Positions 74-38,710 of a stretch of 64,000 bases of DNA are shown here, piece after piece. Origin of the DNA: Hyaloraphidium curvatum (Eukaryota; Monoblepharomycota; Hyaloraphidiomycetes; Hyaloraphidiales; Hyaloraphidiaceae); the NCBI GenBank assembly GCA_025558095.1, contig JAIVFI010000025.1:372001-436000 (forward strand). The letters are read 5' to 3'. The notes under the pieces were generated by a model, which worked only from the letters and a program-made list of their open reading frames with translations, was not told the origin of the DNA and did not search any database. Every line of letters begins with the position of its first letter. Within the stretch, counting starts at the first letter, position 1. The position numbers and the translations under genes are program-made.

Positions 74-3363
<3,290 letters not shown>

Positions 3364-3582
3364 GGACCCGAATACCCGATTACCCAAACTATAGAGCCCT
3401 TTGCGGACCTGTATTCCTTGTACAAAGATATCAAGATTCTTGAGTGCGCATTTGAAATGCGACTATGAACGGAAGCGGACCTCGGAAAGCCGGGATCCGT
3501 GCAGACAAAGTAGTTTTCCCGTGCTTGTCACAAGCGGTCAGTTCTAGTTTCACTCGTCCACGCTCTCCGTGTAAGTCAGGGT

Positions 3583-5587
3583 TCAGATGTTTGGGCAGGT
3601 GAAGGTGGCGTCACCCCAGCACTTGCCAAACCCGCGCAGGCAGCTCTGCGCGTCGCACCACGCCTGCCCGTTGCTCCCGCCATCGTCTTGACAGAACCCG
3701 GACGCCGAACAGCACAGACCGTCCTGACATCTGCGGTACCTAGGAGAGAGAGGCGTCAGCAACCTGCGATGCCAGTGCAAAGAGGTCACAACTCACCCAT
3801 GGTTCGGTCCACACCGGCCCGTAGTTGTGAACTTGATGCGAGGGCACGGCGCCGTCACGGCACCTCCCGATGGCCTGCTTGCCAGAGCGCCCCCGCACAC
3901 AAACGCGCCCGTGCCGAGGCATCTGCCGTACCCGCGCATGCACCCGTTGCCACACGCGGTGGTGCTGGTCCCGCACTGCCCGTCGTTTCCGCAGCACTGA
4001 CCCTGCGGGCACCGCATGCCGCCGTTGTCCGGCCCGCACCGGCCGTTGCCGCTGACGCCGTATGCCGGGCACACGTCCGTGAACTGGCAGTCCCCGTAGC
4101 CGATCTGGCACCCGCCGGGGATTGAGCACCACGCCGAGTTGGAGTCGTCGTTGGGGCTGCCGCCGCTGGAGCAGTAGCCCATGGCGCTGCAGCAGCGCCC
4201 GGCGGGGCAGCGGGCGCCCACCGAGGGGCCGCAGCGGTTGTCGGTCGACTCGCGGAGGCCCGACTGGTCGACCAGGGGGGTGAGGTTCTGGTCGGTGTTG
4301 TCGGTGGTGGAGCCGCCGCCGGGGCGGATGAGGTTGGGCTCCGGGATGGGATAGTTTTGCTCCGTGTACGCAGGCGGGGGGTACTGCGCCCAGAGGCGGC
4401 TGTCGAGGTCGGTGCAGCGCTCCTTCTGCGCGTTCATCTCGGCCAGCAGCGCATTGCACTGGGCCAGCGTGGTCTGTCCCATGTCGGCTTGGGGCCAGCA
4501 GAGCTCCTGCGCGCGGAAAGCGCTGTCGTAGGTCGCCCAACAGGCGGCCTGGATCTCGCGGCGCTCGGCGACGGGGCCGTACGGGTTGCCCATGTTGGAG
4601 TCGGTGTTGTTGGTGTACATGAGCGAGCGCACCGGGCGTCCGCGGCGCCTGCACTCTGCGACGGCGTCGGGAATGCCGGTCTGGTAGCCGCCGGGGCAGC
4701 GGTAGGGGTAGCACTGGTTCTGGCGCTTGCCGTTGCCAAAGTACTGGCACTGGCCGGCGGGGCCGTTGAGCGTGGTCCACGCGTCGCCGCCGCGGAACGT
4801 GGGGCACTGGTTGGCGCGCTTGGAGACGTAAGAAGACATGCTCCCAATGACGGTAAAGTCGACGCACGAGATCCTGCGAAAGGAAGAGGCGGCGATGCGT
4901 CAGCGTGCGAGTCGATGCGGCTGCATTCGTGCGCGCCCACCAATCCGTCTGGCCCTCGTAGATGTTGCCGCGCACGGCGCCGCCGCCGAACCACATCCAC
5001 TGCACGGTGTACCTGCCGTTGGGCAGGTAGCGCGGGATGGTGAAGGTGCCGCGGCACACGTTGCCGTTCTCGACCGTGCCCGGCGGGTCTCCCGATCGCG
5101 GGTCCTCCGGGTAGTAGGCGCCGCGGCAGTTGACCTCGAAGCACGAGTAGCCGACGACACCGACGTCGAAGGACGACTGGAAGTCCGAGCGGTTGTATGG
5201 CGCCACGGCCCAGCGTATGAAGCCGCCCGGGTGGTTGTTGCGTGGCCACGTCACACGCACGGTCTGCCCGCGCCGCAGCTGGAGCCTGGCAGGCCGCCCA
5301 TCCTCCTTCAGAGCCCCACATGGAGCCCAGCAGTTTCCGGCTTGGCAAACATCTTTAGGATACCGTGGCGGGGCCCCTGCGAACGACAGGATACGCGAGT
5401 GTGCGGCGGCCCGTCCGATAAGGAGAAAAAGTCCGAGGAGGCACAGTGCGAGCGGCGCCAGGCCGGGCCGGGGCGGGCGGGCGGAGCGGTGCCGGAAGCC
5501 CGCGCCGCCCTCCGCGCCGTCCGCCGCGCCGCGCCGCCGCAGTGATCGTCCACTGTGGTGCCACGAGGGCTCCGGGGGCGGGTCCAT
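3583..5587 (-). CDS. Secreted LPMO-like protein with three hevein-type (CBM18) chitin-binding modules
   Basis: Predicted exons 5587-4941, 4873-3797, 3739-3583 (626 aa). A hydrophobic signal stretch (about residues 43-60) ends in RAAA, so cleavage would leave His63 at the mature N-terminus (HSRILSF). An N-terminal His plus the internal NNHPGGF is what a copper histidine brace of a lytic polysaccharide monooxygenase needs. The first domain ends with CVDFTVIG. A Cys-rich unassigned middle follows, then three 8-Cys hevein-like units (RCGPSVGARCPAGRCC, RCGPDNGGMRCPQGQCC, RCGPNHGYRRCQDGLCC). Likely acts outside the cell on chitin, either the fungus's own wall or environmental. The LPMO call is by motif only; it could be a non-catalytic relative. 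The first intron donor is GTGGGC, chosen because it joins QTDW to ISCVDF in frame. Confidence 0.75.
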
Positions 5588-25883: not shown

Positions 25884-27273
<1,390 letters not shown>

Positions 27274-27359
27274 CGGGGCGACGACAATGAAGGGTGCGCT
27301 CGATCGCGAAGTGATCAACGTGGTGGTCCGCGTCCCACCATTCAAGCTCGGCGACCAAC
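27274..27359. promoter_or_regulatory. 86-bp bidirectional promoter between WDR5 and dynactin p25
   Basis: Only 86 bp separate the two start codons of divergent genes, so their core promoters and 5' UTRs must overlap. No TATA box was seen. Starts on both sides are fixed by conserved protein N-termini, though 5' non-coding exons cannot be excluded. Confidence 0.6.
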
Positions 27360-28175
27360 ATGGCGGCACTGCGGCCGGAGGTCGATCCGTACATTCCGGA
27401 AGCCTTTTCGAAGGCGGAATACATCGTGACGGTGGGCGCCTTGTCACGTGCGGGATCCGACGGACTCTGAACGCGTCGGTTTCCAGGACGCGGGCAACCG
27501 CGTCTCCCGGAAAGCCCTGATCCTCGGGAGCCAGAACATCACCGTGGGCGGCAAGGTTGGACCCGGCGTGCCGCGCGGACGCGTGGCCGGCATTTCATTC
27601 GCGGCCGCAGACCATCATTCAGTCGGGCGCGGTCATCCGGGGCGACCTCAGGCGCAGCGCGGGCGTGGGCGCGGGCCAGGCCGCGCTGGTATCTATCGGC
27701 AAGTACGGGATGATATCGCGGAACGTCATCATCCGGCCGCCGTACAAGACGTACAAGGGGTGGGTCGCTGCGCGGCGCCAAACCCAACGAACGTCTGGCG
27801 AACGCGGAATCGGAACAGCGCCTTCAACTATTACCCGGTCAAGGTCGGCGATAACGTGCACATTGGTCAGGGCAGCATCATAGAGGCGGCCAGCATCGGG
27901 TCCAACGTCCACATCGGCAAGAACTGCGTCATCGTGAGTTGGTGTTCGGCTCGCATGAACTCGGCTGACCGTGGGCCGCACAGGGACGCTTCGTGATCAT
28001 CAAAGACTGCGTGCAGATTCTGGACGACGCGGTGGTGCCGGCCAACGCCGTGATCCCGCCGTTTTCTGTGTACGGCGGCAACCCGGCCCAGTTCCTCGAG
28101 GAGCTGCCCGAGTCGTTCCCGGAGGCGCACGAGGAGTTTGTCACGGAGTACTTTGAGCAGTTCCGCGTGCGGTGA
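27360..28175 (+). CDS. DCTN5: Dynactin subunit 5 (p25)
   Basis: Predicted exons 27360-27425, 27487-27555, 27611-27759, 27819-27933, 27984-28175 (196 aa). The joined protein is a left-handed beta-helix protein: AFSKAEYI, RVSRKALILGSQNITVGGK, TIIQSGAVIRGDL, VIIRPPYKTYKG, VKVGDNVHIGQGSIIEAASI, NVHIGKNCVI, then GRFVIIKDCVQILDD and VIPPFSVYGGNPA. Length and motif order match p25 of the dynactin pointed-end complex, which links dynein to early endosomes in fungi. The hexapeptide pattern continues across every intron, supporting the joins. Confidence 0.93.
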
Positions 28176-28659: not shown

Positions 28660-31600
28660 CTATTCCTCGTAGTCGAAACCGGGGAATCGCTTCTTCATCG
28701 AGGGGTAGCTCCAAATGTACTCCCCCGATCGAACTCCCTTGGCCTTCTTGCTCTTGCAATCGCCCTTGTTGATGCCCCCCATGTAAGCCCCGCACCAGTC
28801 CCGCTTGCGCCTCATGATCTCGCCGCAGCCACCGCGGCAGAGATGTATGAGGTCGTAGCGATCGTGGTCGACGGCGTAGTCAATGACGCATTGGCCGCGG
28901 CAAAAGGGAGGATCGCGGAGCTCGCTCTTGTCGCTGGAGACGAGAACAGGATGAGGTTCGGTCCGGATCGATGGGCGGAGGCAAACCCACGTGACCTCAC
29001 CGCCGCATTGCGCGCAGAGAAGGTCAGATTCCGCTTGCAGCATGTCGAGCACGGAGGGTATAAAATAGCTGCCGGATGGCTCCGCGCCCTGCGGAGCGCC
29101 GGAAGCCTGCTTGCTCCGATCGGGCTTCTGGGACTTCTTCTCCTTGACCGCAGGCTGCGACACCGGTTTCGCGACCTTGGCAGCCAGCGATTGCGAGGAC
29201 GAAGGGGTCGAAGTCGGCTGAGCGCGGCTGGGCTTGTCGACCTCGGCCACCTCGGCCACCGTGGGAGTTTGATTGTCGCCTTCGCGCGGCGTCTCCGGGT
29301 AGTGGGTATCGGGAGGGAGCCTGAGCTCCGGAGGAGGCCTGCGCGGCAGGGGATGGAAACGAGCGGCATTGGGGTATCCTGTCGAGGTCGGCGAGGCGGG
29401 GCGGGGCGGAGAGGGTACGATGGGCACGGGCACGTCGACCCGCTTCTTCTGAAACTGGAAGAATGATGCCAAATGTGAGACGCGACAGGAAAAGCGAGGC
29501 GGCGAGAACCAACTTTGGGCAACGGCGTCGGATCACTGCAGAAGATGTCCTTGATGACCATCTGCCCGCCGTCGGTGATTGGAAGATCGCGTGCAACGGA
29601 AGCTTGGTTCCCACGTTGCTTTCCGTCCTTGTCGACGGGCTTGGGTTTCGAGGCATCCTTCTTTGCGTCCGAGCTCGGAGCTCCGGAGTCCTTGGCTCGT
29701 GCGGGGGGCTTGGGCTGCGCAACTTCGCCCCGATGCTTCGGTTTTGGGGCGGCGGACGGCGCGCCCTTCTGCCGGTGCGGAGAGTCGTCCCCAGGCTTCG
29801 GCTTGGATGCAGGCGGCACATCCCTCCGCCTGTGCGGAGAAGGAGGCAAGCTCGGCGGCGCCGCAGGCCGACAAGCGAGGTCCGAAAGGAGGGCCTGCTG
29901 CGCGTCCATCCGCGACACCAGCTGGTTGATGCTCGCTGAGAAGCCATTGAATGCGCCAGGCAGGGTCTGCATTGTCGCGGTGACAGCGGCCAAACCGGCG
30001 GTCATGGCGGCAATCTGAGCGCCCTGATCGGCCAAACCGGAGGTCAGAGCGGCGATCTGAGCGTCCTTCTCCTTGCCGGTGCGTTCAACCTCCCGAACGC
30101 GACCAGCAATGGCTTCGTCGAAAAGCTTTTGGAGCGCAAACTTGCCGTCCACCCGGTCGGCCACGGCAAGCATGAACTCCGAGTCGAGAGCAGAACCTGC
30201 GTTCGCATGCAAGAGCGAACCAGACGCTGCGGCGGCTCCGGCAGCCGCGGCGGCCGCAGCGGCCGCAGCCGCGTCTTCCTCCCTGCCTCCCTCGTCCTCG
30301 GTACACTGGTCTCCGACGTCCCTGCCTCCGTCGTCCTCGGTCGACTGGTCCCCGTCGTCCCTGTAGACGAAACGTTCGCGGGTCGGCGAGCGCGAGAAGG
30401 GCAAAAGAGGGGAGTGCATGGCTGCCCTGCCGCGGGAGGGAGTATGTCCGGCGCGATCGTGGCCCTCGGACTCGCCGTCCGAAGCGTCGCGATCGTCGGG
30501 CCGTGCGGGATGGCGAGCACGCGGAACAGGGCGTGCGGGCGAGGGCGGCAGCTGAGCTCGCAGCTCCTTGAGCTGCTTCGCGATCGCCTTCTTCTCGGCC
30601 TTGGCCTCGTCCGACTGGTCGAAAAAGAGCTCTCCCTCGCGCTTCTCCAGTTCCGCTGCAACGCCTTCCAGCGCGCCGTCGCCGAACAGGTCCGATCGCG
30701 GGTCCGATCTCGCGGATGTCGAGCGCCGGCGGCCAGGAGACAGCGTGAAGCGTACTTCGGGCGGCAGCACGTTTTCCTCGGAAGCAGGGCTGTAAGAGGT
30801 ACGCGGAAATCGGGGTCGGGGCGGAGAGGGGAGGCGAGGACGGCGGTCGTCCAAGGGTGACGGCGGGAGGGGAGGCGAAGAGAGGCGGGAATGCGAGGGC
30901 CGCCAGGGCTCGGGCCGAGGAGCAGCTGGTCGGGCAAGTGCCTGCCGCGCGGGAGGCGCCTTGACGATCCGCTCCGGTTCGTCCTCGTCGGACGAGATCT
31001 CCACAGTTTCGATGACCCTAGGCAGCGCCGGCGAGGCGGATGCCGACAGAGTCCGGCGTGTGGCTGCTTCCTTCGCGGCGAGCTCCTGGTGGTACTTGTT
31101 GACCGCCTTGGTGCTGAAGTCCGGCACGGGCATGATGCTCTTGCTGGCCGGGGTCCTGAGCTGGTTGTCGGTCGCAACCTGCCGCTGCTCGGCGCCAGCT
31201 TGCTTCTGCGCGGGTTGCGGGGCCGGGTCCGAGGCGGGCTTCGCCTGGGGCTTGCGGCTGGGGGCGTTGTCCTTGCCGTTTCCGCCGCCCTTGCCGTCCT
31301 TCCCGCCGCCCTTTCCGTCCCCGCGGCCGTTGTCGTCGTCCGAGTCGGTGTCCGACTCCGTGTCGGGACCCGGCAGGGGCTTCTTGGCCGGCTTGCACTT
31401 GTTCTTCTGCTCGTGCCGGTCCCTATACGACTTTCGGGTGTACTGCAGCCGACGTTAAGCATGCGAAGAAAGCAAGGGTGCATCCACCAACCCCCTTTCC
31501 GCAGATGGTGCAGCAATACGGCGGGTTGTCGTGCATGGCCTGGTGCTTTGCGAACGCTTCGGCGCTCTTGAGCTGCGCAACGGCCGCATCAGCACCAATC

Positions 31601-34600
31601 CTGACCAGGCACGCAGGCACGGGCAACACCTCACCTTCATCTTGCACCGACCGCACTTGAACTCGTCGTGCTGGTCCGCAGGCTCGTTGACCTTGGGCTT
31701 CTTGGCCTTGGACGGCTCGTCGGCGGGTTCCTCGGACGCCCGATCGTCGGGCTGGTCCGCGATCTCGTCGAACTTCCGCTTCTTGACCTGGGGCGGCTTG
31801 TCGGCGGGTTCCTTGGATGCAGGTTTCGGGCCGTCGGTAGGAGGCGGCGCGTGGCGCACGTCGGCACCGCGAGGAGCCGAGGAAGGCGAGCGCAAAAGGT
31901 CTTCGGCAGCGTCGACAAAGATGTCGCGGTCCGAGAGGATCTCATCGCCCGAGGCGGAGCGAGCTCGCGGAGCCGCGGCAGATGCCTGGTCCGCCGCCGG
32001 CTTGGGCAAGTCCGCACCATCCTCCGCGTCTGAGTTGTAATCCGAGTCGTACATGCCGAGCATGGGCAGGGAAACGGGAACGGGGCGGGGAGCCGGCGCC
32101 AGCTTCTTGTCCGAAGACTCTGGCGGCGGCGAGCCCAAGCGCTTGAACCTTCCCGGGTGCTCCTTCGAGCGAAGAGCGAATGGGTCGGCAGCGGGGAGGG
32201 GAGGCACCCGGGGAGCGGCACGAGGCGTCACGGCGCGCTCGGAAACCGGCGAAGGGGAACGGTCCTGGCGAGAGGCGCGCGCCGAAGGAGCGGGAGCAGG
32301 GCCGTTGCGGGGAGCAACGGGCTGTCCGCCCGGCGGAGGATCCGGCCAGGGACCGTTCGGGTCGAACCCGTGGAAGCTGGGATCCTCAGTGGGGAAGACC
32401 TCGAGCTCTGCGGGTTGCGAGGTCGAAGCAGATGGGTCGCAGCATGCCGGTGGCGCGGGCAAAGTAGGCGCATCGGAAGGGATGGGTGGGCAGCGGCAAC
32501 ATGGTCAGCAAAAGCCCGCGATGCCGCGGAATCGATGCCACGCACCGGAGCGGTGGTCGCACTCCTCGCAGTTGCAGACACATGCCACGTCGCAGACGCA
32601 CTTGCCGTCCGGGCGCTTGTAGCACTTGCCAGGACACTTCCGGTGCCTGCGGAAAGGAAACGGCGTGTCAGGCGGCATGATCCAGGCGCACGCCCCGCGG
32701 AAAGCGTACTCCTGCTTCCTGAGGCCGTGCTGGTGGCCGTGCTGGTGGCCATGGCCGTCGCCACGGCGGCCGCGGGACCCCTTGCCCTTGCGAGACTTGC
32801 CCTTCTTGCCGCCGCCGGCCCCGTTCTGCTCGCCCTCCTCGCCTTCCGACCCCGCCTCTTCCGACGCGGACCCCTCATGGCGCTTGCGCTTGCCAGGCTT
32901 CTTCTTCTTCCGCTTCTTGTCGCCGGAGTTGCCCGCGCCCGAACCGCGTCTCCGATCCGGGCCGTCCCGGTCCGAGCCGCCTCCGTTTCCGGAGGCCCCG
33001 GAAGCGCCACCACGGGGCGGGTTGCCCGACGAATCATCGCTGCCCGAAGAAGAAGAGGAGGAGGAAGAGGAACTGTCCGAATCTTTGTCCGGATCGTCCT
33101 TTCCTTGCTCGCCGTCGGAAATGTCCATGCCCTCCTCGGGCCTCAGCACGGCCTTGGCGGTGAGCACGTCGGCGGTTTGCTTGCTGTTGTACGGCGCGTG
33201 GACATCGATCACGGCTCGCGGGTACCTGCAGTCGCGGACGTCAGCAGCATCCCAGGCCAGCGCACGAGCGAACGCAACCCACCTCAAGGCCGCCCTTTCG
33301 GCCAACGCCATCAGCTCCCGCGTGCCCTCGCGCCTCTCCCCCTGCTTGGCAACGGTCTCGGGCGGCGGCCGCTTCCACCGCTTCGGGTACCGCGTGGCGA
33401 GGTTCGGCGCCGAGAAGCCCTCGGCGTTCTTGACGAGCTCGTGGGTGATCTGGCGCGCGATCTCGCAGCCCTGGGAAACGGCAGGCCCGCAGTGCAGGAA
33501 CGGGATGAGCAGGTGCTTTGGCGTGTCCTCCGCGAGGTTGAAGTAGCTGTCCAGGATGCGCATAAAGTCGCGGAACTCGTTCGGGAAGTGGAGCTCGAAC
33601 GTGGCGACGTTGGCGGGACCGCACATCTGATCCAGCATGACACGCGCATTGGGAAAACGCCGGGCGACGTGCATAGGAACGTGCAGCGAAAGGAAGCCGT
33701 CTTCCCGGCTCTCGAACCAGTTCTCGGCGACCTCGTACCGCTTGGAGTGCCGCGAGACCCGGTCGACCGAGGTCGCGGCCACGAGCGTCTTGCCGCGCAT
33801 CCACTCGTCGACGAACGTCGTGATCTTGGTCAGCGAACCCGCGCCTACGGCCGAGACGGCATCCATGGGGAGCACGGCACAGTTGGCGTGTTTGGCGAAG
33901 TAGAAGAAGAACAGCTCCATGAACTCGAGCTGCGTGTTGAGCAGCGAGCTGCCCAGGTCCTCGGAGGACGCAAAGTACTTTTTGCCGCGCGGCGATTCGC
34001 GCGGGACCATGAGGAGGTTGTCGAACCCGCGCATGACGGCCGGGACGAGGTACTGCGGGTGCGAGGGAGGGAGGGAGAGAGGGCAAGGATGGGTGGAGAA
34101 AGCCGGACGGCGGTCAGGAAAGCCATCATCGGCGCAGCAGAGCGGCCCGGCGCACCTTGCGCATCAGGTCAATATAGAGCGACGCCGCCTCGTTCCGGTA
34201 CGAGTTCAGGACCCGCAGCTTCACCGCCCCGGCGTGGCTGGCGACCGATCGCTCCTTCACGTGCACGTTGGACTTTTCGGCCAGGTCGACGAACTTGGCC
34301 AGCATCTCGTCCGCGCCCGGCGCCGAAGGGTCGTAAATGTCGTACCCGCTGCCGTCGGGCATGCCGATGGCGAGCTTGTCCCCCTGCAGGCGGAGGTTGC
34401 GATCCACGTGCTTGTAGTCCGATCCTCTGCGCGAGAAGCGCGAGACGTTGGCCGACACGATCAGGCACTCGCCGGGATTGTCCCGGGGCGGCATGTAGCG
34501 GTTCTGCGGCTTGAGCCTCATCTCGGGGGTGCGGTTGAGTTGCCGGGTGAGCGCGCGCGCGAAATGCTGGCGCCTCCACATGGGGATGGCCTCGTTGGTC

Positions 34601-36621
34601 CGGCCCGCCTCGCTGACGATAGTGACCTTCGAAACCTTCATCGGATCCACGACGAGCTTTGCCGCATCGTCCAAAAGGTTGACTGCCTGCTTGGGCCGGT
34701 CCTCGGCCCGTCCCTGGCGCATGCCCGAGGTGCGCACGGGGATCGTCAGCATCGACGCGTTAATCCTCTTTTCCGGAGGAAGCAGCTCGTCTTCGTCTTC
34801 GAGCGGCTCCTCGCCGTCGCCGCGCTGGGGAGGGAGGCGGCGAGAATGATCGCGAGGCGGAGCGAGGGAGAAAGGAGGGAAGAGCGGAGGAGAGATCGGG
34901 CGCGCATTTCCGTGAGCCATGTGCGCAGCGGGAGCGCGGAAAAGGCCCACCTTGCGCTTCTTGGGCGTCGTGAGGTACGCGGGCTCGAGGTGCCCCGGGT
35001 CGGCCGCCTGCCCCGGCTCCGTCATGTGCGGCACGGGCTTCCGCCGCCCGCGGCCCGGCCGCTTGGCCCGTTCGGCGCCGTCGAGCAGGATCTTGGCCCG
35101 AGACTGGATCTGCGGCGCCGTGCGGCCCGCCTCGTCGATGATGCGCACGTCGGGACCCGCCTTGGCCGCGGTGCGCAGGTCGTGGATCGTCATGCGAGGC
35201 GTCAGCAGGCTCTTTGCCGGCGGGCCCGATCCGAGCGCCTCGAGGTCCAGCGCCTGCACCTCGCCGCCCTGCACGTGCGCCAGATCGTCGACGTCCCTGT
35301 CGACCTCGGCGCCGTCGAGGGGGGGCCGGAAGAACGAGACGAAGGCCGGGTCGACGAGGTCCGTGACGCCGGCGCCGCGCGAGCCCATGACGAAATGCAC
35401 CAGGCGCGGCTCGGCGGTCGTGATGAAGGTCCCGATGTCGGTGCGGTCCCACGGGCGCGTGCCGGGCGGGTCGTAGCCGACGCCGGTGAACCAGACCCGG
35501 GTCGGGAGCGGGTCCTCGAGGCCGCGGAGCCACGCCTTCGCAGCGGCATCGTACCGGCGGTACAGATAGGTGGCAAAGTCCTCGTCCGGGAGGCGTTCCC
35601 CCGCAAGGCCTTTCCTGGTCAGCGCGATGAGCTCCGAGTGGATCAGGTTCACCCCACGCGGAAGCGAAAGCACGCTTTTCAGCTTCCGGTTGTTCCATGC
35701 GGCTTTCTCCTCCGCGCTGGAGTCCCGTTCGTTGAACTGGAACCACATGCGCATGGCGAGGCTCAAGAGGTGCATGGGCGCGATTCTGAGCGGCTGCATC
35801 GCATCAATCATCGCCTGCACTTGCAGCTCGGTGCCCTCGAAGGGCTCGGGCAGGTCGGCGAAGCGAATGCGCGGGACGCCGAGGAAAACATGCACGTAGA
35901 TGTTGGCGTGGCGGGCCGCTTCGTACTTGGCGCCGAAGCGGACCGATCCGTTGAGGGCGTCCGTGCGCGTCGACTGCCAGGCTTCCTTGCGAAGCGGGTG
36001 CGCCGACGACGGATCCGGATCAGGGTTCTTGATGCGCAGCGTGATCGCACGAACGGCGGGCGGCCCTGCGTCGTCGTCGTCGTCGGAGTCCTCCTCCGGC
36101 GTAGCTTCCCCGTCGGTAGGTTCCGCCTCGCGGGGCTTGCCGACGACGCCCCCCTTGCGAGCGAGGGCCGCGATTTCCGGGAACGTGCGGCTCGAGATGG
36201 AAACCTCCATCGAGCTGAACGCGCCGAACGCCCTGATGAACTGAACGAGCAACTCGACGTGCTCCTCCCCGATGTCCGTCCGGAGGAGGAGGGGCGTGCC
36301 GCGGAACCACGGCAGCTGCGGCAACAGCGGCTCCAGCGCGACTTGCCGCCCGTTGAGCTCGTCGTCTTGGTCCGAGTACCTCTGCAGCAGCTTGACCAGG
36401 AGGACGACGACATCGTCGACGCCGACTTCGGGCCGCCTCCCCGTGCCCGGGTCTCGCGGCCGCTCCCGCAGCCACGGGTTGGCCTCCATCGCGGCGGCGC
36501 GGATGGCGGGTTCCGAGGGCGGCGCGGCGCCGGTCGCCCGTGTCGGGGGGCGAGCGAGTCGACGCCTCTTTGGAGGCTGGGGGGGCTGCGAGGAGAAAAT
36601 GGTTGCCGCATGCACCGTCAT
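28660..36621 (-). CDS. Giant protein with two tandem serine-recombinase-like domains and zinc fingers
   Basis: Predicted exons 36621-34951, 34824-34156, 34052-32692, 32646-32546, 32407-31635, 31572-31492, 31442-29514, 29454-28660 (2459 aa, all phases close). Residues 1-557: unknown domain. Domain A (about 582-760): TIPVRTSGMRQ with Arg588/Ser590, KQAVNLLDDA, VTIVSEAGRTN, then LIVSANVSRFSRRGSDY and AEKSNVHVKERS. Domain B (about 793-900): LLMVPRESPRG with Arg798/Ser800, NTQLEF, then LVAATSVDRVSRHSKRY. These are the order and spacing of serine recombinase cores (Y/P-x-R-x-S; D/N-x-S-R-x-S-R; phiC31 has DVSRFSR). Then poly-Ser, basic, Cys-rich (KCPGKCYKRPDGKCVCD), two zinc fingers (FKCGRCKMKLKSAEAF...H...H; YCCTICGKGYTRKSY...H...C), an Ala run and a Cys-rich end. 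Family call by eye; start uncertain (MEANPWL 44 residues on is an option). Confidence 0.65.
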
Positions 36622-36981
36622 CGAACAAAGTACAAACAGGCTTTTCTCGACACGCAAAATCGCCGTCGGAGGACGCAAAAACTGCGGATGCAATTGGATT
36701 ACGCTTCGAAAATGTCCATTGGCGGATTTTCCAGGCTACTGCAGCCCGCGGGGACCCACCTCGGGCTTCTCGTCACGTGCGGGTCGGGGAACGCCGGCCG
36801 GAGACCGGCTGGTTGCAAACTCCACTTCTTTTCGACAATCTAAAAGCAACAGGACCAGAAGACTTGACTTCTACCGCAGGTCATCCCGCAGCCGCGGCGA
36901 CCGGTCCCCCAGGTCCCCCAGAGTCCCGCCGCCGCACCCCACACCCCCCCCTTTCCCGGAAAAGACCACGGGAACTGTTTT
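36622..36981. other. Promoter of giant gene and 3' UTR of EF-1alpha
   Basis: 360 bp between two same-strand genes. No ORF with a recognisable product. A pyrimidine/purine-skewed stretch lies around 36900-36960. Confidence 0.5.
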
Positions 36982-38710
36982 TTACTTCTTTCCCTTTTTC
37001 CCTCCGGCGGCAGCACCGCCCTTGCCGGCAGCCTTCTCGGTCTTCTCGACGGTCTTGATGACGCCGACGGCGACGGTCTGACGCATGTCGCGCACGGCGA
37101 AGCGGCCGAGCGGGGGGTAGTCGGTGAAGGCCTCGACGCACATGGGCTTGGTGGGGATCATCTTGACGATGGCGGCGTCGCCCGACTTGACGGCCTTGGG
37201 CGCGTCCTCGAGCTTCTTGCCCGACCGACGGTCGATCTTCTCGATCAGCTCGGAGAATTTGCAGGCGATATGAGCTAGAGGCGTCAAACGCAGCCGCCGA
37301 GCGTTGCCATGCGACGAGAGAGACGTTAGCGTGTGTCCGGAGGCGTCCGTGGTGGTTGGTGATGGTCGGGGAGGGAGGGGGGGGGGGGGGGGGGGGAGGG
37401 GGTCAGCCACGTGTATACAAACACAAACAACCACCACCACGCACCGGTGTGGCAGTCGAGCACGGGGCAGTAGCCGGCGCCGATCTGGCCGGGGTGGTTG
37501 AGCACGATGACCTGGGCGGTGAACGAGGCCGTCTCCTTGGCCGGGTCGTTCTTCGAGTCCGAGGCCACGTAGCCGCGGCGGATTTCCTTGACCGACACGT
37601 TCTTGACGTTGAAGCCGACGTTGTCGCCGGGCACGGCCTCGGGCAGCGACTCGTGGTGCATCTCGACCGACTTGACTTCGGTGGTGACGCCCGAGGGGGC
37701 GAACGAGACGACCATGCCGGGCTTGAGCACACCGGTCTCGACACGGCCGACGGGCACCGTGCCGATACCGCCGATCTTGTACACATCCTGCAGGGGCAGG
37801 CGGAGGGGCTTGTCGGTGGGGCGGCTCGGGGGCTCGATGGCGTCGATGGCCTGGAGCAGGGTCTTGCCGGTGACCTCGCCGGCCTTGCCCTCCTTCTTCC
37901 AGCCCTTGAACCAGGGCATGTTGTCCGAAGGCTCGATCATGTTGTCACCGTGCCAGCCCGAGATGGGGACGTAGGGGACGGCCTTGGGGTTGTAGCCGAC
38001 CTGGACGACATAAGTCAGCGGCCGTTCGACGCTGAAAGCAGCCCGGCGGCGGGGCCCACCTTCTTGACGTAGGCCGACAGCTCCTTGACGATTTCGTTGA
38101 AGCGCTCCTCGGACCACTTGCACGAGTCCATCTTGTTGACGGCGACGATCATCTGCTTGACGCCGAGGGTGTAGGCGAGCAGGGCGTGCTCGCGGGTCTG
38201 GCCGTCCTTGGAGATACCGGCCTCGAACTCGCCGGTACCGGCGGGCACGATCAGGATGGCGCAGTCGGCCTGCGAGGTGCCCGTGATCATGTTCTTGATG
38301 AAGTCACGGTGGCCGGGGGCGTCGATGACGGTGACGTAGAGCTTGGGGGTCTCGAACTTCCACCTGCATCGCGCATCGCGGTCAGCTATCCGTGCGCGCA
38401 AGGGCGACCGCGCATCCACCCACAGGGCAATGTCGATGGTGATACCGCGCTCGCGCTCGGCCTTGAGCTTGTCAAGCACCCAGGCGTACTTGAACGAGCC
38501 CTTGCCCATCTCGGCGGCCTCCTTCTCGAACTTCTCGATGGTACGCTTGTCGATACCACCGCACTTGTAGATCAGGTGGCCGGTGGTGGTCGACTTGCCG
38601 GAGTCTGGTCACGCGGATCAGCGCCCCATCCGCGGGCCCGCGGCGACGAATCGATGCTCACCGACGTGTCCGATGACGACGACATTGACGTGGGTCTTCT
38701 CCTTGCCCAT
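36982..38710 (-). CDS. TEF1: Translation elongation factor 1-alpha
   Basis: Predicted exons 38710-38662, 38604-38424, 38363-38060, 38000-37445, 37274-36982 (460 aa, the normal length). G1 motif VIGHVDSGKST (split by intron 1), G2 region [14 protein letters not shown]3 [13 protein letters not shown]4 NKMD. Domain II begins around [20 protein letters not shown] and domain III ends in the Lys/Gly-rich [13 protein letters not shown]. It delivers aminoacyl-tRNA to the ribosome. Intron 4 is unusually long (170 nt) and carries a 20-nt homopolymer. Codon choice is strongly C/G-ending, as expected for a highly expressed gene. Confidence 0.97.
37377..37396. repeat. G20 homopolymer inside EF-1alpha intron 4
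   Basis: Twenty consecutive G on the plus strand, flanked by further G runs (GAGGGAG before, AGGGGG after). In the transcript it is a C20 tract, about 100 nt upstream of the 3' splice site. Confidence 0.9.

Follow-up and report, generated by a model that had tools for sequence, protein, structure and literature searches.

Large serine recombinases combine a catalytic domain with a Recombinase domain and a zinc ribbon, and in gamma-delta resolvase, which like the phiC31 integrase group belongs to Pfam family PF00239 (Resolvase), we take the active-site residues to be R8, S10, R45, R68 and R71. According to the accessible part of PMC4058570, the Ser nucleophile of serine recombinases cuts within dimers and tetramers, and each chain carries one catalytic domain. 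IS607-family serine transposases were acquired by the yeast Saccharomyces kluyveri, where they form a small duplicated family with two members lacking the catalytic Ser (accessible part of PMC2715888), and they also occur beside Fanzor2 (accessible part of PMC3627910). Here we analyzed a 64,000-nucleotide stretch (the window) of nuclear DNA from the fungus Hyaloraphidium curvatum (Monoblepharomycota; genome 31.9 Mb; contig C25), which contains a large minus-strand gene (36621-28660) labelled hypothetical protein in the public record. Judged from its sequence, the central region of the predicted protein would be a tandem pair of strongly diverged catalytic domains (cores 1 and 2) of serine-recombinase type and descent, a reading toward which the evidence leans slightly and which is best supported for core 2. 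Sequence comparison also indicates that the gene is apparently a very diverged member of a Hyaloraphidium family with at least four loci.

The two successive cores each have a strand-like run with R-x-S and, 80-103 residues on, another run with R-x-x-R, in the form [DSHF]-R-[hydrophobic]-[STD]-R that is common to PF00239; a candidate R45-like Arg in core 1 and a weak profile likeness are further points of similarity. Unlike PF00239 members, the family lacks the Tyr before R-x-S and scores nowhere above the curated cut-off, and the window protein differs further in its two cores per chain, an insertion ahead of strand four of core 1 and an N-terminal domain of more than 500 residues. As in large serine recombinases, the catalytic-like cores are followed by Cys-rich parts, a likeness drawn without comparing Cys spacing; Pfam detected no Recombinase domain and no recombinase-type zinc ribbon (window open reading frames [ORFs] at E up to 1, core segments at E up to 10). 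The IS607-family genes of yeast likewise illustrate serine-recombinase genes resident in a eukaryotic genome, as proposed here; the S. kluyveri proteins differ in having a single core and a length of about 250 amino acids (aa), and their identity to bacterial proteins is 24-31%, as described in the accessible part of PMC2715888. An IS607-type N-terminal MerR-type helix-turn-helix did not appear, Pfam listing no family in the N-terminal part of the window protein or in exon 1 of its relative L061.

The gene was modelled as nine exons encoding 2434 aa, in one open exon chain with GT-AG introns, and the high third-position G+C (0.675, 0.514 and 0.826 at codon positions 1, 2 and 3) indicates that the minus strand is the coding strand. 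An earlier interpretation made from the letters of the window (the sequence-only reading) had proposed two successive serine-recombinase-like cores around residues 588, 590, 798 and 800, and the gene and these residues are indeed present, the spliced model and the codons being in agreement. The core-1 motif TIPVRTSGMRQ starts at residue 584 (Arg588, Ser590) and is followed by ANVSRFSRRGSDY at residue 682; the core-2 motif MVPRESPRG starts at residue 795 (Arg798, Ser800) and is followed by SVDRVSRHSKRY at residue 875, the codons of the named motif residues having been verified in the window DNA. The features of the two cores are as follows.

34156-34824, minus strand: exon 2, residues 558-780, core 1
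34726-34734, minus strand: Arg588-x-Ser590, candidate nucleophile motif of core 1 (codons; relatives' alignment)
34570-34572, minus strand: Arg642, candidate third active-site Arg (R45-like, RQHFARAL resembling RPEFQRMI), chosen after the relatives were seen
34429-34440, minus strand: Arg686-x-x-Arg689 (SRFSR), candidate Arg pair of core 1, alignment-dependent
34053-34155, minus strand: intron B, phase 0, immediately before core 2
33283-34052, minus strand: exon 3, residues 781-1037, core 2 and the following region
33993-34001, minus strand: Arg798-x-Ser800, candidate nucleophile motif of core 2 (codons; relatives' alignment)
33750-33761, minus strand: Arg878-x-x-Arg881 (DRVSR), candidate Arg pair of core 2 (codons; relatives' alignment)

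The family comprises at least the window locus (C25) and loci on C4, C10 and C27, the latter three carrying relatives at 17-26% identity. The C4 member (gene B, L061) is intact in our model (exons 1105-1821, 1877-3217 and 3271-4527; 1104 aa), the C10 member (L068) has both cores, and the C27 member (L067) has core 2 alone, its preceding part not having been found; exon ends of the relatives were placed by eye on GT-AG. Searched with the C27 relative, the genome yielded C4 at E 2e-23 and C10 at E 2.3e-7. With the window left out, a core-2 profile of the three relatives still detects exon 3 of the window gene at 28.2 bits (independent E-value [iE] 2.4e-8) along nearly its full length (profile positions 3-233); the next best of the 378 window ORFs comes at iE 4.6, and none of 2000 shuffles reaches the score. 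The intron before core 2 lies at the same place and in phase 0 in the window gene, L061 and L068, the C27 copy being too short to reach this position, and a Cys-rich stretch after core 2 recurs in the C4 and C27 relatives. Residues ~194-229 of window exon 1 resemble exon 1 of the C4 gene B (9.7 bits, iE 0.016, best of the 378 ORFs), and tblastn aligned residues 193-280 of the window exon with the same gene at E 0.063. A weak match to the C27 relative on C3 (G000:C3:721026-721199, minus strand; E 0.8) is either a diverged member or chance.

The R-x-S and R-x-x-R residues had been named from the window before any relative was known, R642 being added afterwards, and their conservation was compared with random sets of the same residues (20000 draws). 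In core 2 the named columns were kept in 10 of 11 comparisons versus 43 of 324 elsewhere, a result matched by 21 of the 20000 draws with local and 13 with global alignment. The core-1 columns were kept in 8/8 comparisons versus 57/256 elsewhere by local alignment (144/20000 draws) and in 5/6 by global alignment (528/20000 draws); with R642 included, the local count was 10/10 (32/20000 draws). Arg588 and Ser590 are identical in the C4 and C10 relatives under both alignments, and the Arg642 column holds Arg in both relatives by local, not by global, alignment. A hydrophobic, strand-like run with R-x-S occurs in all six cores that hold this stretch. Both Arg of R-x-x-R are present in three of the four core-2 copies, the fourth having the second Arg only, and no core 2 has the R45-like, third Arg; the residue sets are thus R, S, R, R, R in core 1 and R, S, R, R in core 2. 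R-x-S, R45-like Arg and R-x-x-R occur together in 3/3 core-1 copies, 23/28 resolvases and 7/405 null chunks, a three-part pattern that was written after the relatives had been seen.

For core 2 of L061, a segment selected by kinship and not by motif, PF00239 was the sole Pfam family listed (E 0.024, 15.2 bits against a cut-off of 23.3, 64 columns), a value to be read beside the 0.027 at which an unrelated family matched by chance; the other four core segments of the relatives gave no PF00239 match in the Pfam scan. In the reverse direction, hidden Markov models (HMMs) built solely from the family were used to rank 25 bacterial resolvases against 196 bacterial chunks, 239 own-genome chunks and 200 shuffled resolvases. 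The areas under the curve (AUCs) for these three nulls were 0.937, 0.951 and 0.911 with core 2 and 0.892, 0.875 and 0.799 with core 1, compared with means of 0.443, 0.364 and 0.478 and maxima of 0.721, 0.619 and 0.672 for 80 random own-genome chunks; p-values from this test are not to be taken at face value, because the resolvases are related to one another. Single cores reached AUCs against the bacterial null of 0.867 (win_c1), 0.861 (L061_c2), 0.783 (win_c2) and 0.705 (L067_c2), the remaining values being 0.584 (L061_c1), 0.579 (L068_c1) and 0.499 (L068_c2). An HMM of bacterial resolvases scored win_c1, win_c2 and L061_c2 higher than all 526 null chunks and L067_c2 higher than 525 of them, but not the other three cores.

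Taken without its relatives, the window gives a fainter picture. A loose pattern, R-x-S ... [DNS]R[LIVFM]xR, is matched by 10 of the 378 ORFs in the window, of which this gene accounts for two, and 5.6% of 500 shuffled versions of the protein contain it two or more times. From the motif alone, the two cores barely exceed chance; with the relatives they do exceed it, most clearly core 2. With an HMM of 49 resolvase sequences, the two core ORFs ranked 1 and 4 of 378, at only 2.0 and 1.5 bits, and in hhalign comparisons with resolvases the core ORFs ranked 1 and 2 of 227 ORFs, their scores being reached by 0 and 2 of 597 null chunks. A profile-profile comparison, a check that followed from the sequence-only reading, was ambiguous: the exon segments gave P 0.003 (66 columns) and 0.011 (56 columns), and with a second resolvase alignment P 0.003 (59 columns) and 0.03 (107 columns), the signal residing in the motif. 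A true resolvase gene of the same genome scored 138.9 in the same hhalign test, although its like sat in the template set. In full-domain alignment, 73 of 500 shuffles equalled core 1 and 2 of 500 equalled core 2, and the scores were 6.6 and 14.1, respectively, versus at least 113.8 for 28 true resolvases. The full-domain aligner placed strand 1 of core 1 at KVTI (residue 623), a placement rejected since the relatives point to TIPVRTS instead. From the window alone, we had held the resolvase likeness to be motif coincidence, a view given up once the paralogues emerged. Single-sequence AlphaFold2 models of the two cores were poor (predicted local distance difference test scores of 39.2 and 41.6), and Foldseek with them (best 50 of 358 and 39 of 39 matches) listed no resolvase, the models being too poor for this to be informative.

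The strongest alternative is that the gene belongs to a fungus-specific nuclear zinc-finger family unrelated to serine recombinases, with another or a new fold in which the Arg and Ser residues might, for example, contact the nucleic-acid backbone. We consider this a serious minority possibility, and several results speak for it and against serine-recombinase descent. No curated-library resolvase model reaches its cut-off: no core segment of the window or its relatives attains the 23.3 bits of PF00239, and a Pfam match to Resolvase or Recombinase, expected from the sequence-only reading, was not obtained for the window segments, which also found no resolvase in PHROGs or NCBIfam. The same libraries gave none for the relatives' cores (L068 core 2 was left out of these two scans), nor was there a resolvase among the PDB sequence matches for the segments of the window or its relatives. 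All six cores in which this stretch is present lack the Y-x-R-x-S Tyr, one having Phe in its place; in 28 aligned resolvases (28 of 49 domain hits) Y, R, S, R, R and R, this Tyr included, are invariant. The signal hangs on a six-residue motif: setting these residues to Ala lowered the hhalign scores from 24.2 and 21.3 to 10.8 and 13.1 (null mean 11.2), and masking R-x-x-R removed the signal of the bacterial-resolvase HMM. Three of the seven cores (L061 core 1 and both cores of L068) have no clear resolvase signal, and full-domain alignment was at noise for six of seven, win_c2 alone being supported (3/400 shuffles). In comparisons of family with resolvase profiles, core 1 aligned over 101 columns with R-x-S on R-x-S and SRFSR on DRFxR at P 0.03 only, and core 2 over 44 columns at P 0.033 only; among single relatives, P was 0.045 for L061 core 2, 0.12 for L061 core 1 and 0.17 for L067, and L068 core 1 reached 0.013 out of register.

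Further difficulties concern core 1 and the reach of the family. The core-1 residue count varies with the alignment, falling to 5/8 (1948/20000 draws) when R642 is included in the global alignment. Window core 1 was not significant against the relatives' core-1 profile (0.9 bits, with 91 of 2000 shuffles as high), so that the evidence for its kinship is its position ahead of the shared intron together with its residues. The C27 query reached window core 2 at E 1.4 only, below the C3 match, and cores 1 and 2 did not recognize each other (profile P 0.12; BLASTP E 0.30); an internal duplication, for which there is no sequence likeness, was rejected. Against an unrelated family stand the letters named before the relatives were known, which were kept above background, clearly so in core 2, the listing of Resolvase as the sole Pfam family for L061 core 2, and a reciprocal ranking beyond all 80 controls. 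The proposal of two recombinase-like cores is thus retained in part: motifs, kept letters and family profiles support it, whereas the segments from the window have no resolvase hit in the libraries and no Tyr, and core 2 lacks the third Arg. The cores are not assigned to PF00239, because their scores stay below the curated value and the Tyr is absent.

If the cores do descend from a serine recombinase, both would adopt the resolvase fold, and the candidate Ser590, perhaps also Ser800, would attack DNA. Given the fuller residue set of core 1, we propose it as the likelier cutting center, and core 2, without the third Arg, would be a built-in partner or regulator. One chain would then replace the two-subunit cutting pair of ordinary serine recombinases, and a nuclear-signal-like PKKRKR, which straddles the splice between exons 1 and 2, would together with the zinc modules bring the protein to DNA. 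Tandem catalytic activity is possible; the full proposal, a eukaryotic nuclear family of fused cores, resident in a fungal genome, in which core 1 would be a working catalytic center and core 2 its partner, forming a single-chain 'cutting dimer' steered by zinc modules, is tentative and on present evidence rather unlikely.

How far the gene extends beyond the cores depends on its splicing; the remaining exons are listed here.

34951-36621, minus strand: exon 1 (residues 1-557), an N-terminal domain that public protein P0001 matches exactly
32546-33225, minus strand: exons 4 and 5 (33225-32710 and 32646-32546), an acidic/basic low-complexity stretch and then the Cys cluster HRKCPGKCYKRPDGKCVCDVACVCNCEECDH
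31492-32407, minus strand: exons 6 and 7 (32407-31635 and 31572-31492), a linker plus the beginning of a pair of C2H2 zinc fingers
29514-31442, minus strand: exon 8, the remainder of zinc finger 2 together with a low-complexity region, outside the public model, with a proposed splice
28660-29454, minus strand: exon 9, C-terminal Cys-rich module, which may be a gene of its own

The public protein DFJ74DRAFT_287356 (P0001; 1549 aa) is identical to the spliced model over its first 1527 residues and then runs through intron G (31491-31443, 49 bases) to a stop, so that residues 1528-2434 depend solely on the splicing proposed here. Removal of intron G restores a second C2H2 finger (zf-C2H2, E 9.7e-7) and the longer protein. 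The zinc fingers named in the sequence-only reading are seen by Pfam: zf-C2H2, the only family above cut-off in the gene, scores 29.4 bits in two stretches against a curated 25.2, a result that hinges on the inferred intron G. The model may instead have joined two or three neighboring genes, with a recombinase-like gene ending at ~32.5 kb and separate genes for the C2H2 module and the C-terminal Cys module; we give this a sizeable chance, short of even, and it is compatible with the favored reading of the two cores. In the C4 and C27 relatives, the chain stops shortly past the Cys cluster behind core 2, on C4 and C15 the Cys module forms a distinct upstream gene, and the public model ends at residue 1549, whereas the single open exon chain with GT-AG introns argues for one gene.

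The Cys module of exon 9 has own-genome relatives on C5 (E 1.8e-4), C15 (E 2.2e-4) and C10 (E 0.09), and two more on C4 were reached from C15, three further weak matches having been left out of the analysis. Its pattern, C-x2-C ... C-x-x-GCG ... C, recurs in L014, L015, L017, L057, L058, P0002 and window 28660-29454. No Pfam family matched it at E up to 0.1 in L014, L015, P0002 or the L017 module, and a protein search with one Cys-module gene gave a single match, again in Hyaloraphidium. The Cys-rich clusters after the cores probably bind zinc. On C10 (L068 4431-9081, minus strand), the two cores are directly preceded by two Cys modules and a fungal Zn(2)-Cys(6) cluster (29.2 bits, cut-off 21), and the whole may form one gene. 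The start of gene B adjoins a Cys-module gene on both C4 and C15. Copies with only N-terminal parts of gene B, at C4:534 kb and on C15 (L062 1572-2087 and L063 8254-8367), lie directly after the Cys-module gene; DNA identity among L061, L062 and L063 is 68-87%, for L061/L063 with the intergenic stretch included, and the L062 and L063 pieces are old partial duplications.

Protein searches at E up to 1 with residues 590-1080 returned nothing but the identical DFJ74DRAFT_287356 (best 7997 candidates scored), and residues 45-560 returned solely the gene's own public protein (best 7987 candidates scored). Viral contigs searched with the public protein and L061 core 2, and phages searched by tblastn with L061 core 2, gave no match. 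Together with the search made with one Cys-module gene, these results tentatively suggest that the family is confined to Hyaloraphidium. On the favored reading, the family most likely descended from a mobile-element recombinase and has long been resident in the genome, given that its copies share little sequence and sit on different contigs; current mobility is unlikely. A transposase or integrase of an element still moving in this genome, in line with the active DNA-cutting element allowed for by the sequence-only reading, would fit the dispersal of the family and the Cys-module gene just before gene B on C4 and C15 with its truncated pair copies, yet is quite improbable, as no second copy of the core region appears at E up to 1, the relatives are just 17-26% identical, repeats around the gene (terminal repeats were looked for) are short and unremarkable, blastn of the window against the six other family loci gave no match (E up to 1e-4), and the genuine resolvase elements of this genome, L003-L006, show a contrasting identity of 97.7-99.9% across 2.8-3.4 kb.

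Those elements belong to the eight PF00239 genes of the same genome (L001-L008, on C9, C22, C4, C34, C46 and C2; 25-59 bits), whose catalytic residue types are the same as those of the window cores in the three genes compared. L003-L006 differ from the window family in being near-identical copies at four places, over the lengths fetched, which suggests that they moved recently. C9 carries an inverted pair of copies (L001/L007, 96%), and in L008 a GCR1_C-domain gene (33.1 bits, cut-off 23) lies upstream.

A title and abstract search of the open-licence literature, a weak negative, listed no paper dealing with the gene family or with serine recombinases that have tandem cores. If the reading is true, a natural tandem-core protein would illustrate a way of building subunit pairing or regulation into a single chain, the fungal family would add to the known serine recombinases retained in eukaryotic genomes, and such domains, here under the label hypothetical protein, could drift past what ordinary annotation can detect; if proven, the protein would be a nuclear DNA recombinase of an unusual two-in-one kind.

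Two plus-strand open frames lie antisense to the gene (33919-36843, 974 aa; 32157-34514, 785 aa) and are probably by-products of the high third-position G+C. Judged by eye from their translations, the neighboring genes are presumably of WD-repeat/dynactin p25 type (26.5-28 kb; 26506-28130) and elongation factor 1-alpha (37-38.5 kb; 37326-38509).

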